This document shows positions 1 through 18,350 of a stretch of DNA of 33,724 bases, one piece after another. Under the pieces are notes generated by a model that saw only the letters and a list, made by a program, of their open reading frames with translations, searched no databases and was not told the origin of the DNA. Source of the DNA: an uncultured SAR86 cluster bacterium (GTDB taxonomy: Bacteria; Pseudomonadota; Gammaproteobacteria; Magnimaribacterales; AG-339-G14). Location of the stretch: positions 1 to 33,724 of the forward strand of contig CACOQX010000010.1 in the NCBI GenBank assembly GCA_902629465.1. The letters are read 5' to 3'. Each line of letters opens with the position of its first letter. Positions within the stretch are counted from its first letter, which is position 1. The translations under genes were made by a program, and so were the position numbers.

Positions 1-175
1 CTGTTTCAGTTTCTTTAGCTAAATTTTCTAAAAATTTAAAAACTCTTGAAATAATCAAAGCTCTTAAAATCAATGAAAAAACTATGATTATTAAAGAAAT
101 AACTACATTACCAATAGATATACCTAGAAAATCTTGATTCCATACTTCCAGTATTAAATTAAAAAACCCGTCCAT
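1..175 (-). CDS. MscS-like mechanosensitive channel, N-terminal fragment
   Basis: The reading frame is open to the left edge, so only the first 58 codons are present; it is too short for the ORF track. The peptide begins MDGFFNLILEVWNQDFLGIS, continues with one hydrophobic helix (about residues 20-42) and then a basic/amphipathic stretch (FKFLENLAKETET). A short amphipathic start, a 'FLGISIG' turn, one helix and a charged 'LKKLAKKT'-type linker are typical of the N-terminus of small MscS-family channels, which open under membrane tension. The start lies 5 bases after the stop of the DUF481-like gene, so it is probably the third gene of the cyclase operon. The pore helix and beta domain are outside the window, so the family call is tentative. 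Confidence 0.5.
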   Translation of the reverse strand, partial: MDGFFNLILEVWNQDFLGISIGNVVISLIIIVFSLILRALIISRVFKFLENLAKETET

Positions 176-180
176 AAAAA

Positions 181-924
181 TTAATTGAAATTATACGAAA
201 AAACTGTAGCAAATCCTTCTTCTTTCTTTACAGCATTTGAAGGAGGTTTTGAGTCATAAAATGTATTGTATTGAAGGGAAATTTTAAAATTTTCATTTAC
301 ATGAAAATCGAACTGACCAATTAGAGTTGCCTTATAATCACTAAAAGAACTTAATGCAGGCTGAATAAAAGCTGATAAATCAAATACTATATTTTCATCT
401 ATTAAAAATTCACTGTGAAAGTAAGAGGATACTCTCAAAGTATTATCAGTAATTGTTGATAAATCCTCTTCATCTTCATTCATAACTCCAACGCCTGCCT
501 TAAAATTATTTTCTAAATTAAATCTTGCACCTAATCCAATTAATTCTCTCTTATTAAATTTTCTAAACGGATTCTTTGAATATTGTATATACGTTTCTAA
601 ACTGGGGTCTTTATCAAATAAAAAATTTAGTCTCAAATGAGCTAATGTTGCAGAATCATAATTTTTTTGATTAATTTGTTTTTGCGACCTCTTTATAACA
701 AAAAAAGTTTCCAAATCTTCTACGTTGTAATCTAATGAGGATTGAATTGAAAAACTGTCTCTATTTCTATTTCCTCTTGAAAAACTTAGCGATCCTGAGA
801 TGTTAGCAAAAAAGCCTTTTTCTCCGTCTCTCCTCAAGTCTTCTACATTTACAATCGCCTCTGAATGAATAAAAAAAGATGAAAATAAAGCAAAAATTAG
901 AAAAAATTTACTTTGTCTTTGCAA
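181..924 (-). CDS. DUF481-like outer membrane protein
   Basis: A predicted outer membrane beta-barrel of about 247 residues. After a signal peptide (QRQSKFFLIFALFSSFFIHSEA) come alternating polar and aromatic strands ending in VFSYNFN. The opening 'GFFANISGSLSFSRGNRNRDSF' style and strand rhythm fit DUF481, whose members include YdiY, described as salt-induced. The ORF track starts at a TTG at 975. I prefer the TTG at 924: it has GGAG a few bases upstream, puts the signal peptide at the very N-terminus and overlaps the cyclase stop by only 17 bases. An ATG at 945 is the alternative. The overlap suggests translational coupling to the cyclase, and the MscS-like gene follows after 5 bases. Function is unknown; the osmotic link is inferred from family and neighbours. 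Confidence 0.65.
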   Translation of the reverse strand: MQRQSKFFLIFALFSSFFIHSEAIVNVEDLRRDGEKGFFANISGSLSFSRGNRNRDSFSIQSSLDYNVEDLETFFVIKRSQKQINQKNYDSATLAHLRLNFLFDKDPSLETYIQYSKNPFRKFNKRELIGLGARFNLENNFKAGVGVMNEDEEDLSTITDNTLRVSSYFHSEFLIDENIVFDLSAFIQPALSSFSDYKATLIGQFDFHVNENFKISLQYNTFYDSKPPSNAVKKEEGFATVFSYNFN

Positions 925-3091
925 TAAATACTCCAGACCAGTCATTCGGCAAGGTTTGTTTTGATAATTCATCAATCCTTTCTAAAAATAGCGTGTAGTA
1001 TAAAGTAAATTCAGTTTTAGAAAACCTATATTTATCAATATGTTCTTTGGCTTTTAGCCAATTTTGATCTCTATAATTCTTTAAAAACTCTTGGTGTTCT
1101 ATTAAAAAATCCTCATCTGGAATCTCGGAATCCTCTTTATTAAATACTGTATAGATTGTTACAGGCTCTGATTTTCCTTTCACCGCAATCAAATCAAGTT
1201 CGCACACAGAATATTTATCCTGTGGAAGACCCTGAACAGATCCTTCACCCAAAATAATCTGCATCCCATAATTGCCCGACTGACCTTCCAAACGAGAAGC
1301 TAAATTAACTGCATCACCAAGCACCGTATAGTCAAATCTTTTATCAGAACCCATGTTTCCAACAATACATTCACCTGTATTTATTCCAATACCCACAGAC
1401 AATTTATCTTCATCATGTCTATTTAGATCTTTATTTAACTGCTCTAAAGCTTTGCTCATTGAAAAGGCAGCATCAATTGATTTTTCTCTATGTTTTGGAT
1501 CTTCAGAAGGCGCATTCCAAAAAGCCATAATACAATCCCCCATGTATTTATCTATGGTCCCTTGATTATTTAATATCTCATTGGACAAAACAGTTAATAA
1601 ATTATTTATTAAATTAGTTAAAGCTTCTGGATCTCCTTTGTATTTTTCAGAAATTGAAGTAAACCCTCTTATATCAGAGAAAAGAAAGGTCATTTCTTTT
1701 CTTTCTCCACCAAGTTTAAGTGATTCACTTGATTGAGCTAATTTCTCTACCATCACAGGTGACATATATTGAGAAAATGCGTTTCTTACCTTACTTCTTT
1801 CTAATTCAGTAAAGAGAAAATTAAAGAACGTAACCACCAAATAACAAATAAGACAAATAACAAGAGGGGATATAGGATCAACCAAATAGTTATAGGAATT
1901 AAAAATATAAAAACTACCAAATGAGGAAATTCCATTTCCCATGATAAAAACAAATAAACCTCCTATTGGACCCAAGAATTGAATAAAAAAAGTAATAAGA
2001 AGGGCTAAAAATAATCCTGTTACAACTTCCATACCAAATATCCAATCAGGTCTTTTAAGAAATTGTCCTGAAAGAATCTGATCTGTTAAATTAGCAATTA
2101 TGTTTACTCCCGGAACATTATTTTCAAGCGGGGTTGATCTTAAATCAAACAGCCCTGGAGCACTCGTTCCAACAATCAATATTTTGCCTTCAAAATCTTC
2201 TTGAGTGTATTTAGGGCTTAGTACTTCCCAGATAGGAATAGTTTTAATAGGCTCTTTGGAGTAATGAATCCAAGCAGATCCATCTTCGTTAGTTGGGATA
2301 ATTAAATTTCCTAATTTGACATGATTTATGCCTGTTTCTTCTCCAAAAGCGTCTTCTCCTGAAGCATTTGAAGATTTTATTTGAAAAGTACTTGCCCCTA
2401 TAGCAACTCTTAAAATTTCTAAAGATAGAGACGGAACAAGATTTCCATTTATATTTTCAAACAAAGGAAGTCTTCTTATAATTGAATCGTTATTTCCAAT
2501 ACTCATACTGCCTATTCCAGTTGCGGAATCATCTAAAATTCTTAAATTAGTTTGAATGCCAGTGTATTTTTGTAAAAATTTTCTTGGATTATCTCCTTGT
2601 TCAATTAGGCCAAACTTCATAACAAAATTATTTCTCTTTGAATTACTTGGTATAGCCCCAAGAACTACTGTTCCATGGTTTTTAATAGAATTTGCAAAAA
2701 TATCATCATTATCTTGAATCTCATTAAGAATATCTATTAAGGAGGAATTATTTTTGTATTGTTTCTTCAATTCATTCGATCCTGTTCTGTCGAACTCTGC
2801 AAAAACAATATCAAACCCAAGAGAAGATGATAGATAGGTTTTATTTACTAGATTAGCAAGAACACTTCTTGGCCATGGCCATTGACCTATCTCAGAAAGA
2901 GATTTTTCATCAATATCCAAAACTACTACTGTGTCTGGAGATATTGTCTCTCTCGGAGAGATGTTTTGAAACAGATCAAAAGCAGTATTTCTTAGACTTG
3001 AAAAAACATTCAAAGGATCAAAAATTGGAATAAAACTTACAAAAATTGCAAAAGGGATTAATAAATATCTTCCTATTTTTGAAAAATTCAT
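908..3091 (-). CDS. CHASE2-domain class III adenylate cyclase
   Basis: A 727-residue membrane-bound nucleotide cyclase expected to make cAMP from ATP in response to a periplasmic signal. Residues about 7-25 form an N-terminal membrane anchor. Residues about 40-340 are a CHASE2 sensor (TVVVLDIDEKSL, then a W-P-W-P motif). Three hydrophobic helices span about 350-428, and the class III catalytic domain about 465-650. Catalytic residues are visible: metal-binding Asp in FSDIRGFT (about 473) and MGDC (about 519), adenine-selecting Lys in TIDKYMG (about 515), Thr in DYTVLGD (about 589), and Asn/Arg in NLASR. The K...T pair points to ATP rather than GTP. Downstream genes overlap or nearly abut it, forming an operon with envelope proteins. 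No cAMP receptor protein is seen in the window. The sensed ligand cannot be read from sequence. Confidence 0.93.
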   Translation of the reverse strand: MNFSKIGRYLLIPFAIFVSFIPIFDPLNVFSSLRNTAFDLFQNISPRETISPDTVVVLDIDEKSLSEIGQWPWPRSVLANLVNKTYLSSSLGFDIVFAEFDRTGSNELKKQYKNNSSLIDILNEIQDNDDIFANSIKNHGTVVLGAIPSNSKRNNFVMKFGLIEQGDNPRKFLQKYTGIQTNLRILDDSATGIGSMSIGNNDSIIRRLPLFENINGNLVPSLSLEILRVAIGASTFQIKSSNASGEDAFGEETGINHVKLGNLIIPTNEDGSAWIHYSKEPIKTIPIWEVLSPKYTQEDFEGKILIVGTSAPGLFDLRSTPLENNVPGVNIIANLTDQILSGQFLKRPDWIFGMEVVTGLFLALLITFFIQFLGPIGGLFVFIMGNGISSFGSFYIFNSYNYLVDPISPLVICLICYLVVTFFNFLFTELERSKVRNAFSQYMSPVMVEKLAQSSESLKLGGERKEMTFLFSDIRGFTSISEKYKGDPEALTNLINNLLTVLSNEILNNQGTIDKYMGDCIMAFWNAPSEDPKHREKSIDAAFSMSKALEQLNKDLNRHDEDKLSVGIGINTGECIVGNMGSDKRFDYTVLGDAVNLASRLEGQSGNYGMQIILGEGSVQGLPQDKYSVCELDLIAVKGKSEPVTIYTVFNKEDSEIPDEDFLIEHQEFLKNYRDQNWLKAKEHIDKYRFSKTEFTLYYTLFLERIDELSKQTLPNDWSGVFIAKTK

Positions 3092-3134
3092 AGTTCTATC
3101 TAAAAATATTATCCAATATTAGCTTTATTTTTAA

Positions 3135-3154
3135 TATAATTCGTTCCGAAAGGA
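3135..3154 (+). promoter_or_regulatory. candidate -10 box and Shine-Dalgarno for the TPR gene
   Basis: In the 70-base divergent gap between the cyclase and the TPR/barrel gene there is a perfect TATAAT (3135-3140), and GAAAGGA ends at 3154, seven bases before the ATG at 3162. No convincing -35 box is visible. The Shine-Dalgarno placement is the reason for choosing ATG 3162 over the TTG at 3156. Confidence 0.35.
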
Positions 3155-3161
3155 TTTGCCG

Positions 3162-4502
3162 ATGAAAATATCAGTATCTTTAGCAAGAAGATTCATATTA
3201 TTTTTATGCTTTTTACTAAGTATAAATCTTCTGGCGCAGAATGTTCCACCATCTATAAGTGACCCTGAAGAGTTGAGAGCAACTCAAATTGAAAGACAAA
3301 AGGTTTTTGACTCAATTATTGAAGATCCAACAAATCTGGAGAATCTTTTTAATTATGCAAATTTATCAATCCTTGTAGGAGATTTAGAAGCAGCAATTGG
3401 AGTTTTTGAGCAAATGCTAATTTATAAACCTGATTTGCCGAGAATTAAGTTAGAGCTTGGAGTTTTGTATTTTAGATTGGGAGCGTATGCTTCAGCAAAA
3501 AGATATCTGGATGATGTTGAAAATTATGACCCTCCTCAAGAAGTTAAAGAGAAAGTGGATGTTTTTCTTAAACAAATTGACAACGAAACCAGACTTTTTA
3601 AGACGCAGTCAGTAGTTTCTATTGGAACCGGAATGTCAAGTAATGCTAATGCTGGATTGGATACAGATGTTGTAACTGTGGTGGGAGATTTGGGAGCAGT
3701 GGAATTAAATATATCAAATAAACCTAAGTCTGATCTTTATTATACAGCAGCTTTTTCATCTCAAATTACTCAAGATTTAAGGCATCCTAGAGGAGATACG
3801 ATTAATTATGTTATTTCTTTGTCAAGACAGGTTTATCGAGATTTTTCAAATTTCGATTCTTCAACTGGAGTATTTTCAGTAAATAGGAAATTTAATATGC
3901 TCGATAATGAAAAATTAAAACTAACTAATCAATCGTTTAGTCCCTCATTAACTGCTTTTAAAGTATTTTTACAAGGTTCAGAATTACTTAGATCACATAG
4001 AGTTGATGTTGATTGGAAGGCAACATTAATGGATTCAGGTACATTTGGTTTAAATGTATATCTAGATGAAAGAGATTTTCTTGGTTCTCAAAATAAATCT
4101 GGAGACTTTATTGGAGTTGGACTTAGCAGAAGTATTATTTTTCCTAAAAGCGGAATTTTCTTGAGTTACAAAACTAATTATGAACATTTCTATGCAACTT
4201 CACCAATCGAGACTTATATAAAAAGATCTTTTGACGTCAGTACTAGACAAGCATTGAATTCGACTACTTTTGCAACTACAAATGTTGGATATTCTTATAA
4301 GGATTATGAAGAAAAAGATCCTTTTCTTGGCTTGAGGTCCGATAAATCGTTAAACTTGAGATTAGGTCTTACTAAGATTCTTAATCTTTGTTGGAATACA
4401 GATTTAGGACTTTCTTTTTCTACCAATAAAAGCACAATTGGACTTTATGCTCGGTCAAATGAAGGATTTTCCGTAAAATTTAATTATCTTTGTACACCTT
4501 AA
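3162..4502 (+). CDS. TPR-containing outer membrane beta-barrel protein
   Basis: A 446-residue exported protein with two parts. A signal peptide (FILFLCFLLSINLLAQ) is followed by about two TPR helix pairs (residues about 45-115; 'NLSILVGDLEAAIGVFEQ', then 'GVLYFRLGAYASAKRY'). From about residue 150 the chain changes to alternating beta strands rich in Tyr, Phe and Ser, as in a membrane barrel. TPR plus barrel resembles the layout of Slam/DUF560 surface-lipoprotein modifiers, but I see no decisive Slam motif, so the role is open. It is divergent from the CHASE2 cyclase and only one base before purU. Proteins of this kind often sit beside CHASE2 or FecR-type genes, which supports an envelope role. 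Start moved from TTG 3156 to ATG 3162. Confidence 0.7.
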   Translation: MKISVSLARRFILFLCFLLSINLLAQNVPPSISDPEELRATQIERQKVFDSIIEDPTNLENLFNYANLSILVGDLEAAIGVFEQMLIYKPDLPRIKLELGVLYFRLGAYASAKRYLDDVENYDPPQEVKEKVDVFLKQIDNETRLFKTQSVVSIGTGMSSNANAGLDTDVVTVVGDLGAVELNISNKPKSDLYYTAAFSSQITQDLRHPRGDTINYVISLSRQVYRDFSNFDSSTGVFSVNRKFNMLDNEKLKLTNQSFSPSLTAFKVFLQGSELLRSHRVDVDWKATLMDSGTFGLNVYLDERDFLGSQNKSGDFIGVGLSRSIIFPKSGIFLSYKTNYEHFYATSPIETYIKRSFDVSTRQALNSTTFATTNVGYSYKDYEEKDPFLGLRSDKSLNLRLGLTKILNLCWNTDLGLSFSTNKSTIGLYARSNEGFSVKFNYLCTP

Positions 4503-4503
4503 A

Positions 4504-5358
4504 ATGTCTAATGAATTTATATTAAGGGTTCAATGTCCTGATAAATATGGCATTGTTGCGAAAGTTTCCTCTACACTAAATAAAGCAAATCTTTTTATAC
4601 TTGACTCCGCACATTATGGGGATCCGGAAAACAAGATTTTCTTCATGAGAGCAAAGTTAGTTTATTCAAAAAAATTGCTTGATATAAAAAAATTTTCAAG
4701 CTTTTTTGAATCAGAATGCAAAAATTTGAAAATGAATTGGTCTATAAAAGAGGCCGGTTATAAACCAAATACAGCAATATTTGTCTCAAAATACGGACAT
4801 TGTCTTCAGGACTTAATGTATAGAGTCGACTCTGGTATTTTACCTATGAAAGTTTCTTGTATTATTTCCAATCACAAAGATCATGAAAAAATAGCAAATT
4901 GGCATGACATTCCTTTCTTTTTTATACCAATTAATAAAAATAATAAAGATGAGTCAGAATTACAAACAAGGAAAATCGTTAAAGATTTGAATATAGACTT
5001 GATGATTCTTGCAAGATACATGCAAATCTTATCTGACGAGATGTGTAAAGATTTTTATGGAAAAATAATCAATATTCACCATTCATTTTTACCAAGTTTT
5101 AAAGGTGCGAAACCATATCATCAAGCTTATGAAAAAGGAGTTAAGATTTTAGGAGCAACTGCACATTATGTTTCATCCGACTTAGATGAAGGTCCGATAA
5201 TAGATCAAAGTGTTGAGAGGGTAGATCATGCTAAAACTCCAAAAGATCTTGAATTGATTGGAAGAGATCTCGAATCTATTACTTTAGCTAGAGCCGTCAA
5301 ATATCATATAGAAAGAAGAATATTTATAAATAATTCTAAAACAGTTATTTTTAGTTAG
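4504..5358 (+). CDS. purU: formyltetrahydrofolate deformylase
   Basis: A 284-residue cytoplasmic enzyme that hydrolyses 10-formyl-tetrahydrofolate to formate and tetrahydrofolate, balancing one-carbon units and supplying formate for PurT-type purine synthesis. The N-terminal ACT domain (residues about 5-85) opens with the diagnostic 'LRVQCPDKYGIVAKVS'. The formyltransferase-fold catalytic domain follows, with Asn and His in INIHHSFLPSFKGAKPYHQA and the catalytic Asp in DLDEGPIIDQ. Length matches the family. The start is one base after the stop of the TPR/barrel gene, so they are probably cotranscribed although functionally unrelated. Its stop overlaps the stop of the converging metalloprotease gene by three bases, leaving no room for a separate terminator. 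Confidence 0.95.
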   Translation: MSNEFILRVQCPDKYGIVAKVSSTLNKANLFILDSAHYGDPENKIFFMRAKLVYSKKLLDIKKFSSFFESECKNLKMNWSIKEAGYKPNTAIFVSKYGHCLQDLMYRVDSGILPMKVSCIISNHKDHEKIANWHDIPFFFIPINKNNKDESELQTRKIVKDLNIDLMILARYMQILSDEMCKDFYGKIINIHHSFLPSFKGAKPYHQAYEKGVKILGATAHYVSSDLDEGPIIDQSVERVDHAKTPKDLELIGRDLESITLARAVKYHIERRIFINNSKTVIFS

Positions 5359-14817: not shown

Positions 14818-16168
14818 AAAAATAGGCATAACAGAGGTTGTTCTCAGAGATGGTAATCAATCTCTACTCTCAACCCGTTTAAAGATAGAAGACATAATTC
14901 CAATTGCGTCTAAATTAGATGATATAGGTTATTCCTCAATTGAAAGCTGGGGCGGTGCTATTTTTGATTCCTGTGTACGTTATTTAGATGAAGATCCTTG
15001 GGAAAGACTGAGAGAATTTAAAAGGGCTATGCCAAAAACGAAACAACAAATGCTTTTAAGAGGCCAAAATTTAGTTGGCTACAAACACTATAGTGATGAA
15101 ATAGTATCTAAATTTATAGATATGTCTGTTTTCAATGGAATTGATATTTTTAGAATTTTTGACGCACTAAATGATTTAAGAAATATAAAACATAGTGTGG
15201 AAATAGTTAAAAAAAATGGTAAACATGCCCAAGGAACAATTGCTTATACAATAAGTCCTGTTCATACGCTTGAAACTTGGATTGATTTAGCTAAAGAAAT
15301 AGAAGATCTTGATTGTAACTCACTATGTATCAAAGATATGTCGGGGATTTTAAGCCCTGAGTTCGCTTATGATTTAATTTCTAGATTGAAAAAAGAAATA
15401 TCAATCCCAATTCATCTTCACACTCATGCAACGACTGGCATGTCTAACTTAACTAATATGAGAGCAGTTGAAGCAGGGGTGGATAATATTGATACCTCTA
15501 TTTCATCAATGAGTATGGGTTATGGACACTCAGCCACAGAAACTATGGTTTATTTACTGAAAGAAAAAAATATCGATGTAGATATTAACTTAAATGATTT
15601 GTTAAAAATCTCGGAATATTTCAAAACTATTAGAGACAAATATAAAGAATTTGAAGGAAGAATGAAGGGAGTAGATTTACAAATGCTTATTAATCAAGTG
15701 CCTGGAGGAATGCTATCTAATTTAGAAACTCAATTAAAAAATCTTGGAAAGGAAGAGCTTTTAGAGGATGTAGTTTCAGAGATATATGATGTAAGAAAAG
15801 ATGTTGGTTTTGTTCCACTTGTAACTCCTGCATCACAAATTATTGGAGCTCAGGCTCTTTCTAATATTTTAAATAAAAGATATGAAACATTATCAATAGA
15901 AATAATTGACATGGTATTGGGTTACTACGGAAAACTTCCAGGAGAAATAAATACCAATCTTTTCAAAAAAGCTTCAGAACAAAAAAATAATATTACAGTC
16001 CGTCCTGCAGATTTGCTTAAAGATAAATTTGAGGATTTTAGAGAAAATTTAAAACAATATTGTAATAAATTACAAATTAAAGATTTGAGTAATATTGAAG
16101 AAAATATTCTTACTTTTATTCTCATACCTTATGGTAGTGAAAAAATTTTCAAAAAGATGTCTTCCTAG
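14810..16168 (+). CDS. carboxyltransferase subunit (OadA/PycB/5S-like) lacking a biotinyl domain
   Basis: A 452-residue protein like the carboxyltransferase part of oxaloacetate decarboxylase alpha, pyruvate carboxylase subunit B and transcarboxylase 5S. These enzymes move CO2 between carboxybiotin and pyruvate/oxaloacetate. Visible features are VVLRDGNQSLL (metal-binding start of the HMGL-like barrel), ESWGGAIFDSCVRYL, the carboxylatable Lys in CIKDMSGIL (about residue 177) and metal His pair HLHTHATTG. The conserved PYC/OADA region follows (QVPGGMLSNLETQL, VTPASQIIGAQA, GYYGKLPG). It ends at KIFKKMSS with no linker and no AMKM biotin-attachment motif, unlike full-length OadA. The partner biotin protein is not in the window. 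Start is GTG, overlapping the hydrolase by 8 bases; the 3' end overlaps the converging porin gene by 20. Confidence 0.85.
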   Translation: MNKKIGITEVVLRDGNQSLLSTRLKIEDIIPIASKLDDIGYSSIESWGGAIFDSCVRYLDEDPWERLREFKRAMPKTKQQMLLRGQNLVGYKHYSDEIVSKFIDMSVFNGIDIFRIFDALNDLRNIKHSVEIVKKNGKHAQGTIAYTISPVHTLETWIDLAKEIEDLDCNSLCIKDMSGILSPEFAYDLISRLKKEISIPIHLHTHATTGMSNLTNMRAVEAGVDNIDTSISSMSMGYGHSATETMVYLLKEKNIDVDINLNDLLKISEYFKTIRDKYKEFEGRMKGVDLQMLINQVPGGMLSNLETQLKNLGKEELLEDVVSEIYDVRKDVGFVPLVTPASQIIGAQALSNILNKRYETLSIEIIDMVLGYYGKLPGEINTNLFKKASEQKNNITVRPADLLKDKFEDFRENLKQYCNKLQIKDLSNIEENILTFILIPYGSEKIFKKMSS

Positions 16169-16796
16169 AAATTGAGAATACAAAACCATCATCATCTTGG
16201 TCGCTGGAATCATTAGAATTAAAGTAAAAATAAAAAAGACTCAGATTAAAATTATTTTGTAATGTTTCTATTCCAATAGAATAATTTGAACCATTAGAAG
16301 TATTTATATTTTTATATGAATCAAAATCTCCATACGATAACGTCAAAGAATTATTCAAAAAATCAAAGCCATAAGAAAATTCATAATAGTCTGGAAAATT
16401 ATCAAGACCTGCAAAATAAGATATTTCAAAATCATAAAAAGAAAAATTAAATTCTAATTCATCATAATTATCAATTTTGGAATTAGGATAATTTGTTCCA
16501 ACGTAGTTAAAAGAAATATTTAGATTTTTATCTATCTCTTTTTGATAACCAAAGAAATAACCAATCTCTCTGTTTGGGTAATCAGTATTTTCTGAGCAGC
16601 AATTTTCAAGCCAAGCTCCTGAAAAAAATCCATTTTCTAGTGAAAAATTAATTTCAACTCCAACTGTAGCGTTTCCATTATTTTGAGTGATGCCTCTCCA
16701 AATAGAATCACTATTTAAAGAAAATTCAATATCACTATTTGTAAATATAGAAAGTGGTAAAAAAAATAAGAAGACTTTTATTAAAATATTATTCAT
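16149..16796 (-). CDS. TorF-family putative porin, divergent copy
   Basis: A 215-residue predicted outer membrane beta-barrel, the most diverged of three tandem TorF-type (Gcw_chp) paralogues. It keeps the family landmarks: signal peptide (ILIKVFLFFLPLSIFTNS), N-terminal DSIWRGITQNNGNATVG, central FEISYFAGLDNFPDYYEF, acidic SSDQDDDGFVFS and a C-terminal Phe. It is richer in Asn and Phe than its neighbours and carries a Cys pair (LENCCSEN) absent from the other two. Its ATG directly follows the T-tract of a strong terminator, so its translation and transcription may be set by read-through. It converges on the carboxyltransferase gene with a 20-base overlap. TorF-type proteins are proposed porins with unproven substrates. 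Confidence 0.8.
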   Translation of the reverse strand: MNNILIKVFLFFLPLSIFTNSDIEFSLNSDSIWRGITQNNGNATVGVEINFSLENGFFSGAWLENCCSENTDYPNREIGYFFGYQKEIDKNLNISFNYVGTNYPNSKIDNYDELEFNFSFYDFEISYFAGLDNFPDYYEFSYGFDFLNNSLTLSYGDFDSYKNINTSNGSNYSIGIETLQNNFNLSLFYFYFNSNDSSDQDDDGFVFSISRKTSF

Positions 16797-16826
16797 AAAA
16801 AAAAGCCTCTCAAAAGAGAGGCTTTT
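16797..16826 (-). terminator. strong Rho-independent terminator overlapping a ribosome-binding site
   Basis: Perfect 11-bp stem (AAAAGCCTCTC / GAGAGGCTTTT) with a 4-base loop. Read on the minus strand, the stem ends in a run of eight T residues. It lies just after the stop of the middle porin gene. The T-tract runs straight into the ATG of the next porin, and GAGAGG in the 3' arm sits at Shine-Dalgarno distance (about 8 bases) from that ATG. Confidence 0.9.
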
Positions 16827-16848
16827 ATTTTAACTTTTTTTCAAGCTC

Positions 16849-17475
16849 TTAGAATGATCTGCTTAAAGATACATAAGCACCATCGTCGTCAACACCGGAA
16901 GAATTGTTTTTGTGAGCTTCAAAGTCGTAGTAGTAAAAACCAAGACTAAAGTCACCAATACCCCAATCATAACCAACTAAGGTGTTATCGCCAGTATCTT
17001 CATATTCTCCGTAAGAGATATTAAAAGAACCTGGACCCGCATCAACTGAGTAGCCGATCTCACTATATGAAGGACCATCATTTTGACCATCAGAGTACAA
17101 AATACTAAGGCCATAGATGTCGAAACCTACATAAGCTTCTTCAAAATCTGCAGCATCATTTCCGGGATAAATTACTGAAATATAACCTATGTTATAGGTC
17201 ATGTTTTCAGCCATTTCTCCTGAGAAACCTAGGTAGATGTCTAATTCCATAGATGCTGTTCCAACATTTGCATTAGACGCCCAAGTTCCAATATAGAAGC
17301 CCAAATCTGTGGATAGATCAAATCCACCATTCACAGAAGGGTCACCATTTGTCTGAGTAATTCCACGCCATATGTAGTCACTACTTAAGCCTACATTACT
17401 TGAAATTTCTACAGCAGATGCATAAGAACTTAAAATTAAAAACATGCTTGTTAAAGCAATTTTTATACTTTTCAT
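16849..17475 (-). CDS. TorF-family putative porin, middle copy
   Basis: A 208-residue outer membrane protein of the TorF/Gcw_chp family. The signal peptide (KIALTSMFLILSSYASA) is followed by SSDYIWRGITQTNGDPSVNGG, the hallmark N-terminus. Later come YSEIGYSVDAGPGSFNISYGEY, YDWGIGDFSLGFYYYDF and an acidic VDDDGAYVSLSRSF ending in Phe, as needed for barrel assembly. It closely resembles the copy at 17709, with near-identical blocks such as AGPGSF-ISYGEY, indicating tandem duplication. GGAG six bases before the ATG gives a good ribosome site. A terminator upstream separates it from the first copy and another follows it, so it is probably its own transcription unit. Substrate unknown. Confidence 0.87.
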   Translation of the reverse strand: MKSIKIALTSMFLILSSYASAVEISSNVGLSSDYIWRGITQTNGDPSVNGGFDLSTDLGFYIGTWASNANVGTASMELDIYLGFSGEMAENMTYNIGYISVIYPGNDAADFEEAYVGFDIYGLSILYSDGQNDGPSYSEIGYSVDAGPGSFNISYGEYEDTGDNTLVGYDWGIGDFSLGFYYYDFEAHKNNSSGVDDDGAYVSLSRSF

Positions 17476-17574
17476 ATCATCTCCATTATAAATTTATAAA
17501 AGATAAACGCATTAAACATTAAAAGATTCCTTCTATAAAGAGTTTTTTTTAAAAGAATCTACATAAATAGGTAT

Positions 17575-17622
17575 AAAAAACAAACAAACCCCTCAATCAA
17601 ACGCAGATTTAAAGGGGTTTGT
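17575..17622 (-). terminator. Rho-independent terminator after the first porin
   Basis: A 10-bp stem (ACAAACCCCT / AGGGGTTTGT) with a 19-base loop and, in the minus-strand direction, a run of T residues (17575-17580, A on the plus strand). It lies downstream of the 17709 porin stop and so isolates that gene from the middle porin. Confidence 0.78.
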
Positions 17623-17678
17623 AAACCATATAATCACTAGAGAAAGGGGAATATAGTTCTTATATAGTTTCAATGGTA

Positions 17679-17701
17679 CCTCCCAGTAAGCAACTGGGAG
17701 G
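17679..17701 (-). repeat. 9-bp perfect hairpin just after the first porin stop
   Basis: CCTCCCAGT and ACTGGGAGG enclose a 5-base loop, starting 8 bases after the stop codon of the 17709 gene. No T-tract follows on either strand, so it is more likely an mRNA 3'-end stabiliser or processing stem than a second terminator. Confidence 0.6.
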
Positions 17702-17708
17702 AATTTAA

Positions 17709-18350
17709 TTAGTAACTAATACTGAAATATGCTCCATCATCATCGGCCATACCACTCGCTGCTTCAGCTTGGAAATCATAAAAGTAAAAACCAAGAGTAA
17801 AATCTCCTATACCCCAGTCATAGCCGATTAATACATTTTCTCCTTTCTCATCATACTCGCCGTATGAAATTGAAAATGATCCTGGTCCTGCATCAATTCC
17901 ATAACCAAGTTCTGTATAGTCTGGAGAATTATCAATTCCCGCAGAAAAAGATATATAAGCTCCATAAAAATCAAAAGTTAAATATAATTCTTCAAAATCC
18001 CAAGAATCATAATCTGGGTAAGTGTAGGCTATATATCCTAAATCATATCCAGCGTCGTCGTTAAACGAACCTGAATATCCTAAATAGCCATCTAGTTCAA
18101 TTGAACCTGATCCAGCAACTGTATCGTCATCATCAGCTTCGACATTAGCTGCCCATACTCCGAGATAGAAACCGCTATCATCTTCTAAGTCAAAACCACC
18201 GCTTATGGATGGATTACCGTCATTTTGAGTCATCCCTCTCCAGATGTAATCAGTAGTAAGTCCAACATTCCCAGACAAAGAAACTTCGGCAAAAACTAAG
18301 CTATTTATGGAAAGAATAGAGCCAAAAATAATTTTTTTTAAAATATTCAT
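17709..18350 (-). CDS. TorF-family putative porin, first copy
   Basis: A 213-residue outer membrane protein, the promoter-proximal member of the tandem TorF/Gcw_chp set. The signal peptide (KIIFGSILSINSLVFA) leads to TTDYIWRGMTQNDGNPSISGG. The body contains IDNSPDYTELGYGIDAGPG, the SFSISYGEYDEKGENVLIGYDWGIG region and an acidic MADDDGAYFSISY end with a terminal aromatic. A short acidic insertion (VEADDDDTVAGSG) lies in one loop and is missing from the middle copy. AAGGAG sits five bases before the ATG, a near-ideal Shine-Dalgarno, and a TATAAT is upstream; a terminator and a stable hairpin follow. These features suggest high independent expression. Transport substrate unknown. Confidence 0.87.
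   Translation of the reverse strand: MNILKKIIFGSILSINSLVFAEVSLSGNVGLTTDYIWRGMTQNDGNPSISGGFDLEDDSGFYLGVWAANVEADDDDTVAGSGSIELDGYLGYSGSFNDDAGYDLGYIAYTYPDYDSWDFEELYLTFDFYGAYISFSAGIDNSPDYTELGYGIDAGPGSFSISYGEYDEKGENVLIGYDWGIGDFTLGFYFYDFQAEAASGMADDDGAYFSISY

Follow-up and report, generated by a model that had tools for sequence, protein, structure and literature searches.

A conserved SAR86 locus pairing a CHASE2 adenylyl cyclase with a putative cAMP-gated K+ channel

Gene content of the locus

The window analysed here (33,724 nucleotides) comes from a SAR86 assembly of 0.94 Mb that is 60% complete, in which it forms the left end of contig C10. The features at its left end are listed in Table 1. An earlier note on this DNA had described a CHASE2 cyclase gene overlapping a DUF481 barrel gene by 17 bases, an MscS-like gene 5 bases further on, and a TPR/β-barrel gene that diverges from a 70-base region. 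This layout is borne out: the overlap follows if DUF481 begins at the likely TTG start codon at 924, which has GGAG in front of it, the DUF481 stop lies at 181 and the MscS ATG at 175, and the divergent genes are separated by 70 bases. Most close relatives share the start context of the DUF481 gene (TTG and GGAG), with the TTG one codon earlier in L031. Promoter-like matches in the 70-base region show no excess over shuffled sequences.

Table 1. Features of the locus, with positions in the window, strand and basis of assignment
Feature	Position	Strand	Basis
MscS-family mechanosensitive channel, first 58 codons	2..175	-	translation; 95% identity to the start of the L026 protein
DUF481 (YdiY-type) outer-membrane barrel, signal peptide	181..924 (ORF open to 975)	-	Pfam DUF481 4.8e-15, alignment, start context
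CHASE2-domain class III adenylyl cyclase, 727 aa	908..3091	-	Pfam; catalytic residues
Cyclase CHASE2 sensor domain, residues 26-365	1997..3016	-	Pfam CHASE2 2.2e-49
Cyclase catalytic domain	1157..1699	-	Guanylate_cyc 1.6e-23; residue alignment
Divergent intergenic region, 70 bases, cyclase/TPR-barrel	3092..3161	.	ORF calls
TPR + 14-strand β-barrel outer-membrane protein, 446 aa	3162..4502 (ORF start 3156/3162)	+	TPR_19 1e-07, AlphaFold2, Foldseek
PurU (formyltetrahydrofolate deformylase)	4504..5358	+	Pfam Formyl_trans_N 2.4e-38

The MscS gene is cut to 58 codons because window base 1 is the contig end; its identity is settled by relatives, since the fragment matches the start of the 365-aa MscS of L026 (L026:8917-10014), which contains the first, second and third MS_channel domains of Pfam (MS_channel_2nd 7.6e-18). 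The two reservations of the earlier note, that the left gene might not be MscS and that the order might be confined to this genome, thus fall away, since relatives identify the gene as MscS and show the same order in other genera. On the other side of the locus, PurU starts one base past the stop of the TPR-barrel gene (4502-4504) and is probably a neighbour outside the cAMP circuit discussed below. Elsewhere in the window, the minus strand at 16149-18350 encodes three paralogues in tandem, each ~210 aa long, which resemble outer-membrane proteins and belong to Gcw_chp (PF09694).

Conservation and co-inheritance of the gene set

Within the genus of the window, the genes keep the sequence TPR-barrel, cyclase, DUF481, MscS, and the flanking PurU and metalloprotease genes are kept too. 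The core locus is also found in other SAR86 families with conserved order and ~38-61% protein identity. All 28 surveyed SAR86-type loci keep the cyclase, DUF481 and a cyclic-nucleotide-gated (CNG) K+ channel. MscS is absent from the cluster in 8/28 of these loci (e.g. L036, L037, L040, L043) and displaced in L035; the L043 cluster retains the channel without MscS. L041 and L050, which are labelled Woeseiaceae, contain the same genes in a rearranged order. The conserved arrangement is not due to chance.

There is also a difference in the genes that adjoin the cluster. Giant proteins with FecR and cadherin repeats, from 1300 to >2300 aa, are encoded beside the TPR-barrel in many SAR86 (L044:1-3912; L112:273-7208), and a giant FecR-cadherin gene stands in other SAR86 genera at the place of PurU; this partner seems to have been replaced in the genus of the window, because PurU occupies its place there. 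The giant protein may be an adhesin at the cell surface that the TPR-barrel exports or senses. A CitT-type transporter with TrkA_C adjoins the CNG channel in most loci, in either orientation (L026:11441-13207 and equivalents). In one SAR86 genus the cluster is accompanied by an Ion_trans gene of the bacterial Nav-like kind (L043:3874-4599), which adds a third type of ion channel to the neighbourhood, and a partial match is found near the cluster in G040 (L112:3-233). In L015, DUF481 pieces flank an inverted cyclase on both sides, which is likely an assembly inversion, and the broken frames throughout the L038 cluster are likely assembly errors.

Concerning the region beyond the contig end, the gene that follows DUF481 or MscS in the relatives encodes an MloK1-like K+ channel, 342 aa in length (range 337-405 aa), that contains a cyclic-nucleotide-binding domain (CNBD). 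The channel could not be seen in the earlier note because the contig ends at window base 1; the window's own genome has no channel match, with the contig stopping inside MscS and the assembly 60% complete. The gene is usually located on the opposite strand, convergent to the cyclase and outside the cyclase operon. In the sequences scanned, the Ion_trans, Ion_trans_2 and cNMP_binding domains are all above the Pfam cut-offs, and the best solved relative is MloK1 (phmmer 7e-38), whose Glu298 and Arg307 are matched in the CNBD alignment. All 26 channel sequences compared share the TTVGYGD filter, the FGE motif (Gly-Glu of the PBC) and, within RxAT, the Arg and the Ala. The predicted model, which is of moderate confidence (pLDDT 76, pTM 0.39), retrieves CNG channels, MloK1 and SthK in Foldseek. 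With both the filter and the CNBD residues present, the protein is a putative MloK1-type cyclic-nucleotide-gated K+ channel, and is the likely direct target of cAMP.

The distribution of the gene set was followed as profile matches in 203 genomes of the order, which are related and not independent. PF00211 is found in 48 genomes, one each, and PF00027 in 51; receptor counts are PF00027 matches, and cyclase counts cover classes I and III. The CHASE2 cyclase is present in 47 genomes and the channel in 46; 45 genomes contain both and 155 neither (Fisher p 2e-41, a value that overstates independence because SAR86 genomes are related). The cyclase occurs without the channel in G000 and G080, both contig ends, and a channel match without the cyclase is seen only in G035, where the cyclase is cut at a contig end. 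Likewise, the regions of the apparent linkage exceptions G035, G080 and G112 were read out and proved to be contig ends, and G191 contains a cyclase of another kind. Where both genes lie on one contig (44 genomes), they are 1.3-2.9 kb apart. The set is patchy between and within genera, yet its genes are present or absent together; two other genera of the same family lack it, and in another family its occurrence is patchy. The TPR-barrel follows the cyclase (45/47 cyclase genomes), whereas DUF481 is also found in 16 genomes lacking a cyclase match, one of them (G035) a contig end.

Looking at the possible receptors and sources of cAMP, a CRP-type receptor is not recognisable in most of the linked genomes, because the channel is the sole PF00027 protein in 43/44 of them. 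The cNMP matches in cyclase-less genomes are mostly frames of ~175-270 aa, consistent with CRP-like proteins. The class III cyclase is present once per genome where it occurs, and no class I adenylate cyclase was found in the 203 genomes by a search that detected the E. coli positive control.

For comparison, 28 loci from other Pseudomonadota that contain a full-length CNG-type channel were examined. By profile searches and by a scan for motifs, a class III cyclase lies within ~6 kb of the channel in 1/28 (L145); the first HMM was narrow, and a repeat with a broader model, phmmer and the motif scan gave the same result. Cyclase linkage is therefore not a general habit of the CNG-channel family, and a general rule of this kind was rejected. 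In L117 (L117:8991-11841), from an unrelated gammaproteobacterium, a HAMP cyclase adjoins a CNG channel whose CNBD lies in another frame, through either a frameshift or an assembly error.

The cyclase and its candidate inputs

The catalytic domain of the cyclase contains the metal-binding Asp473 and Asp519, the substrate residues Lys515 and Thr589, and the transition-state residues Asn596 and Arg600. These six catalytic residues are conserved in 80/80 homologues, the second substrate position being Thr or Ser. In class III cyclases, Lys together with Thr/Ser at the substrate positions is the adenine type. The substrate of the SAR86 cyclase is therefore predicted from these positions to be ATP. 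Of the module suggested in the earlier note, the cAMP-linked envelope part is strengthened by the intact residues, by the confirmed MscS and by the conserved order.

We consider it quite probable that this region of the window is a conserved SAR86 locus, truncated on its left side, whose genes make up a self-contained cAMP circuit with a K+ channel as its output. The receptor cyclase, with its CHASE2 domain, membrane segments and class III catalytic domain, would sense the state of the periplasm or outer membrane, probably relayed by the co-encoded barrels, namely DUF481 and the TPR-barrel, which in many genera is accompanied by FecR-cadherin. The cAMP produced would bind the C-terminal domain of the MloK1-like six-transmembrane (6TM) K+ channel, whose gene lies two to three genes downstream, and open it. 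K+ flux and membrane potential would then change directly, with no transcriptional step; MscS, where present, may contribute tension-gated release. The genes present, their order and joint inheritance, the intact catalytic and ligand-binding residues and the scarcity of further recognised cAMP-binding proteins are direct observations; we infer the gating by cAMP, the relay through the barrels, the stimulus and the physiological outcome. Such a minimal circuit suggests an envelope signal that controls ion flow directly, not genes. For the stricter claim, that these SAR86 have a complete cAMP pathway without a transcription factor in which one envelope-sensing cyclase serves one cAMP-gated K+ channel as the sole receptor, we see even chances.

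A more specific form of the input side, compatible with the proposed circuit, is a cascade like that of Sinorhizobium meliloti, where the outer-membrane barrel NsrA (PMC7529298) is needed for signal perception by the CHASE2 cyclases CyaK and CyaD1/D2 (PMC7529298, PMC13001267). Here the TPR-barrel, with FecR-cadherin where present, would bind an external ligand and activate the CHASE2 cyclase, and the channel would be the output. The SAR86 cyclase is 30% identical to S. meliloti CyaK; nsrA lies directly upstream of cyaK on pSymB, and NsrA combines its barrel with FecR and TPR repeats, as found by domain search. The alphaproteobacterial CHASE2 cyclases nearest to those of SAR86 also often have FecR and TPR-barrel neighbours, as in SAR86; those alphaproteobacterial loci contain no MscS, no DUF481 and no convincing channel nearby. 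The co-inheritance of the TPR-barrel with the cyclase points the same way. Against this stand the lack of detectable homology between the TPR-barrel and NsrA (hhalign probability 2.5%), the fact that no FecR gene adjoins the cluster in the genus of the window, and the chance that the TPR-barrel is itself an exporter. Its AlphaFold2 model (pLDDT 83.9) has helices followed by 14 strands; among its Foldseek matches are BcsC and PelBC, which are exporters of the TPR-barrel type, and the porin OmpG. A distant relative in L067 has a SlipAM match (6.5e-10). Because homology is undetectable and Foldseek also returns exporters, the coupling of the barrel to the cyclase is proposed by analogy only, and we rate the cascade just short of an even chance. 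Three assignments of the barrels were rejected: the TPR-barrel as an NsrA homologue, kept as the analogy above; the TPR-barrel as a Slam member (TPR_Slam 0.066, below the cut-off, and no SlipAM domain); and DUF481 as a part of the NsrA barrel, to which it has no similarity.

The osmotic part of the earlier note fares less well. It holds that the cyclase, a salt-induced outer-membrane barrel and MscS form one unit that senses and responds to osmotic or membrane stress. The order cyclase-DUF481-MscS is indeed kept in the window's genus and several others, and the reading keeps some probability because turgor control would suit a K+ flux combined with MscS. The locus does not call for it, since the cluster can do without MscS (absent or displaced in about one third of the 28 loci) but not without the CNG channel; DUF481 also occurs apart from a cyclase match in the 16 genomes noted above, and ‘salt-induced’ is an annotation name for this family. 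We regard the osmotic reading as rather unlikely. That the neighbourhood has no function, the order being kept by inertia in streamlined genomes and the cyclase-channel adjacency by descent only, is improbable: all co-occurring genomes do come from one order and are small (~1-1.6 Mb), yet the patchy set is present or missing jointly, it survives rearrangement (L041, L050) and differing neighbours on both sides, and the channel is usually the sole recognised cAMP receptor available.

Comparison with known systems

Each part of the SAR86 locus belongs to a known family, and it is the wiring of a receptor cyclase to a CNG channel, in genomes with no recognisable CRP, that appears from the literature searched to be new. 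The flanking DUF481 and MscS genes share Pfam membership with E. coli YdiY and the MscS family; we know of no link of these two families to cAMP. The SAR86 channel resembles MloK1 (mll3241) and SthK as a 6TM K+ channel with a C-terminal CNBD and the same filter and phosphate-binding residues. It differs from them in being distant in sequence, in being tied genetically to a receptor cyclase and in residing in genomes that usually lack a recognisable CRP. On the cyclase side, a close parallel is the S. meliloti NsrA-CyaK/CyaD1-Clr pathway, in which a CHASE2 cyclase of the same family is likewise encoded beside an outer-membrane TPR/FecR/barrel protein. NsrA is, however, a single chain, whereas SAR86 encodes FecR and the TPR-barrel separately or has no FecR, an architecture like a split NsrA; and the output of the NsrA pathway is the CRP-type regulator Clr, where a K+ channel is proposed for SAR86.

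A cyclase that drives a cAMP-gated K+ channel, as proposed here, has been built in PAC-K, which combines bPAC and SthK (PMC6218482); PAC-K is engineered, light-driven and used in animal cells, while the SAR86 pair is natural and, as proposed, coupled to the envelope. The two functions are also genetically coupled in a known fused cyclase/K+ channel protein; in that protein an intrinsic K+ conductance regulates the cyclase, while in SAR86 the genes are separate and the channel is presumed to act downstream. No report of a receptor cyclase wired to a CNG K+ channel without CRP was found, in a search that had most subscription papers outside its reach, and the literature searched contained no mention of SAR86 with an adenylate cyclase.

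SAR86 are abundant ocean bacteria, and the distribution described above suggests that these streamlined open-ocean bacteria lost gene control by cAMP-CRP and retained or acquired control of ion flux by cAMP. Although bacterial CNG channels serve widely as models for structural work, a comparative study calls their physiological role one that ‘remains enigmatic’ (PMC7576140). Since the SAR86 channel is tied to a single receptor cyclase, with almost no rival among recognised cAMP receptors, the role of a CNG channel becomes directly testable in this group. If the stricter claim above is true, a signal at the outer membrane would set the membrane potential or K+ content within seconds, and a bacterial CNG channel would for the first time have a physiological role in nature.
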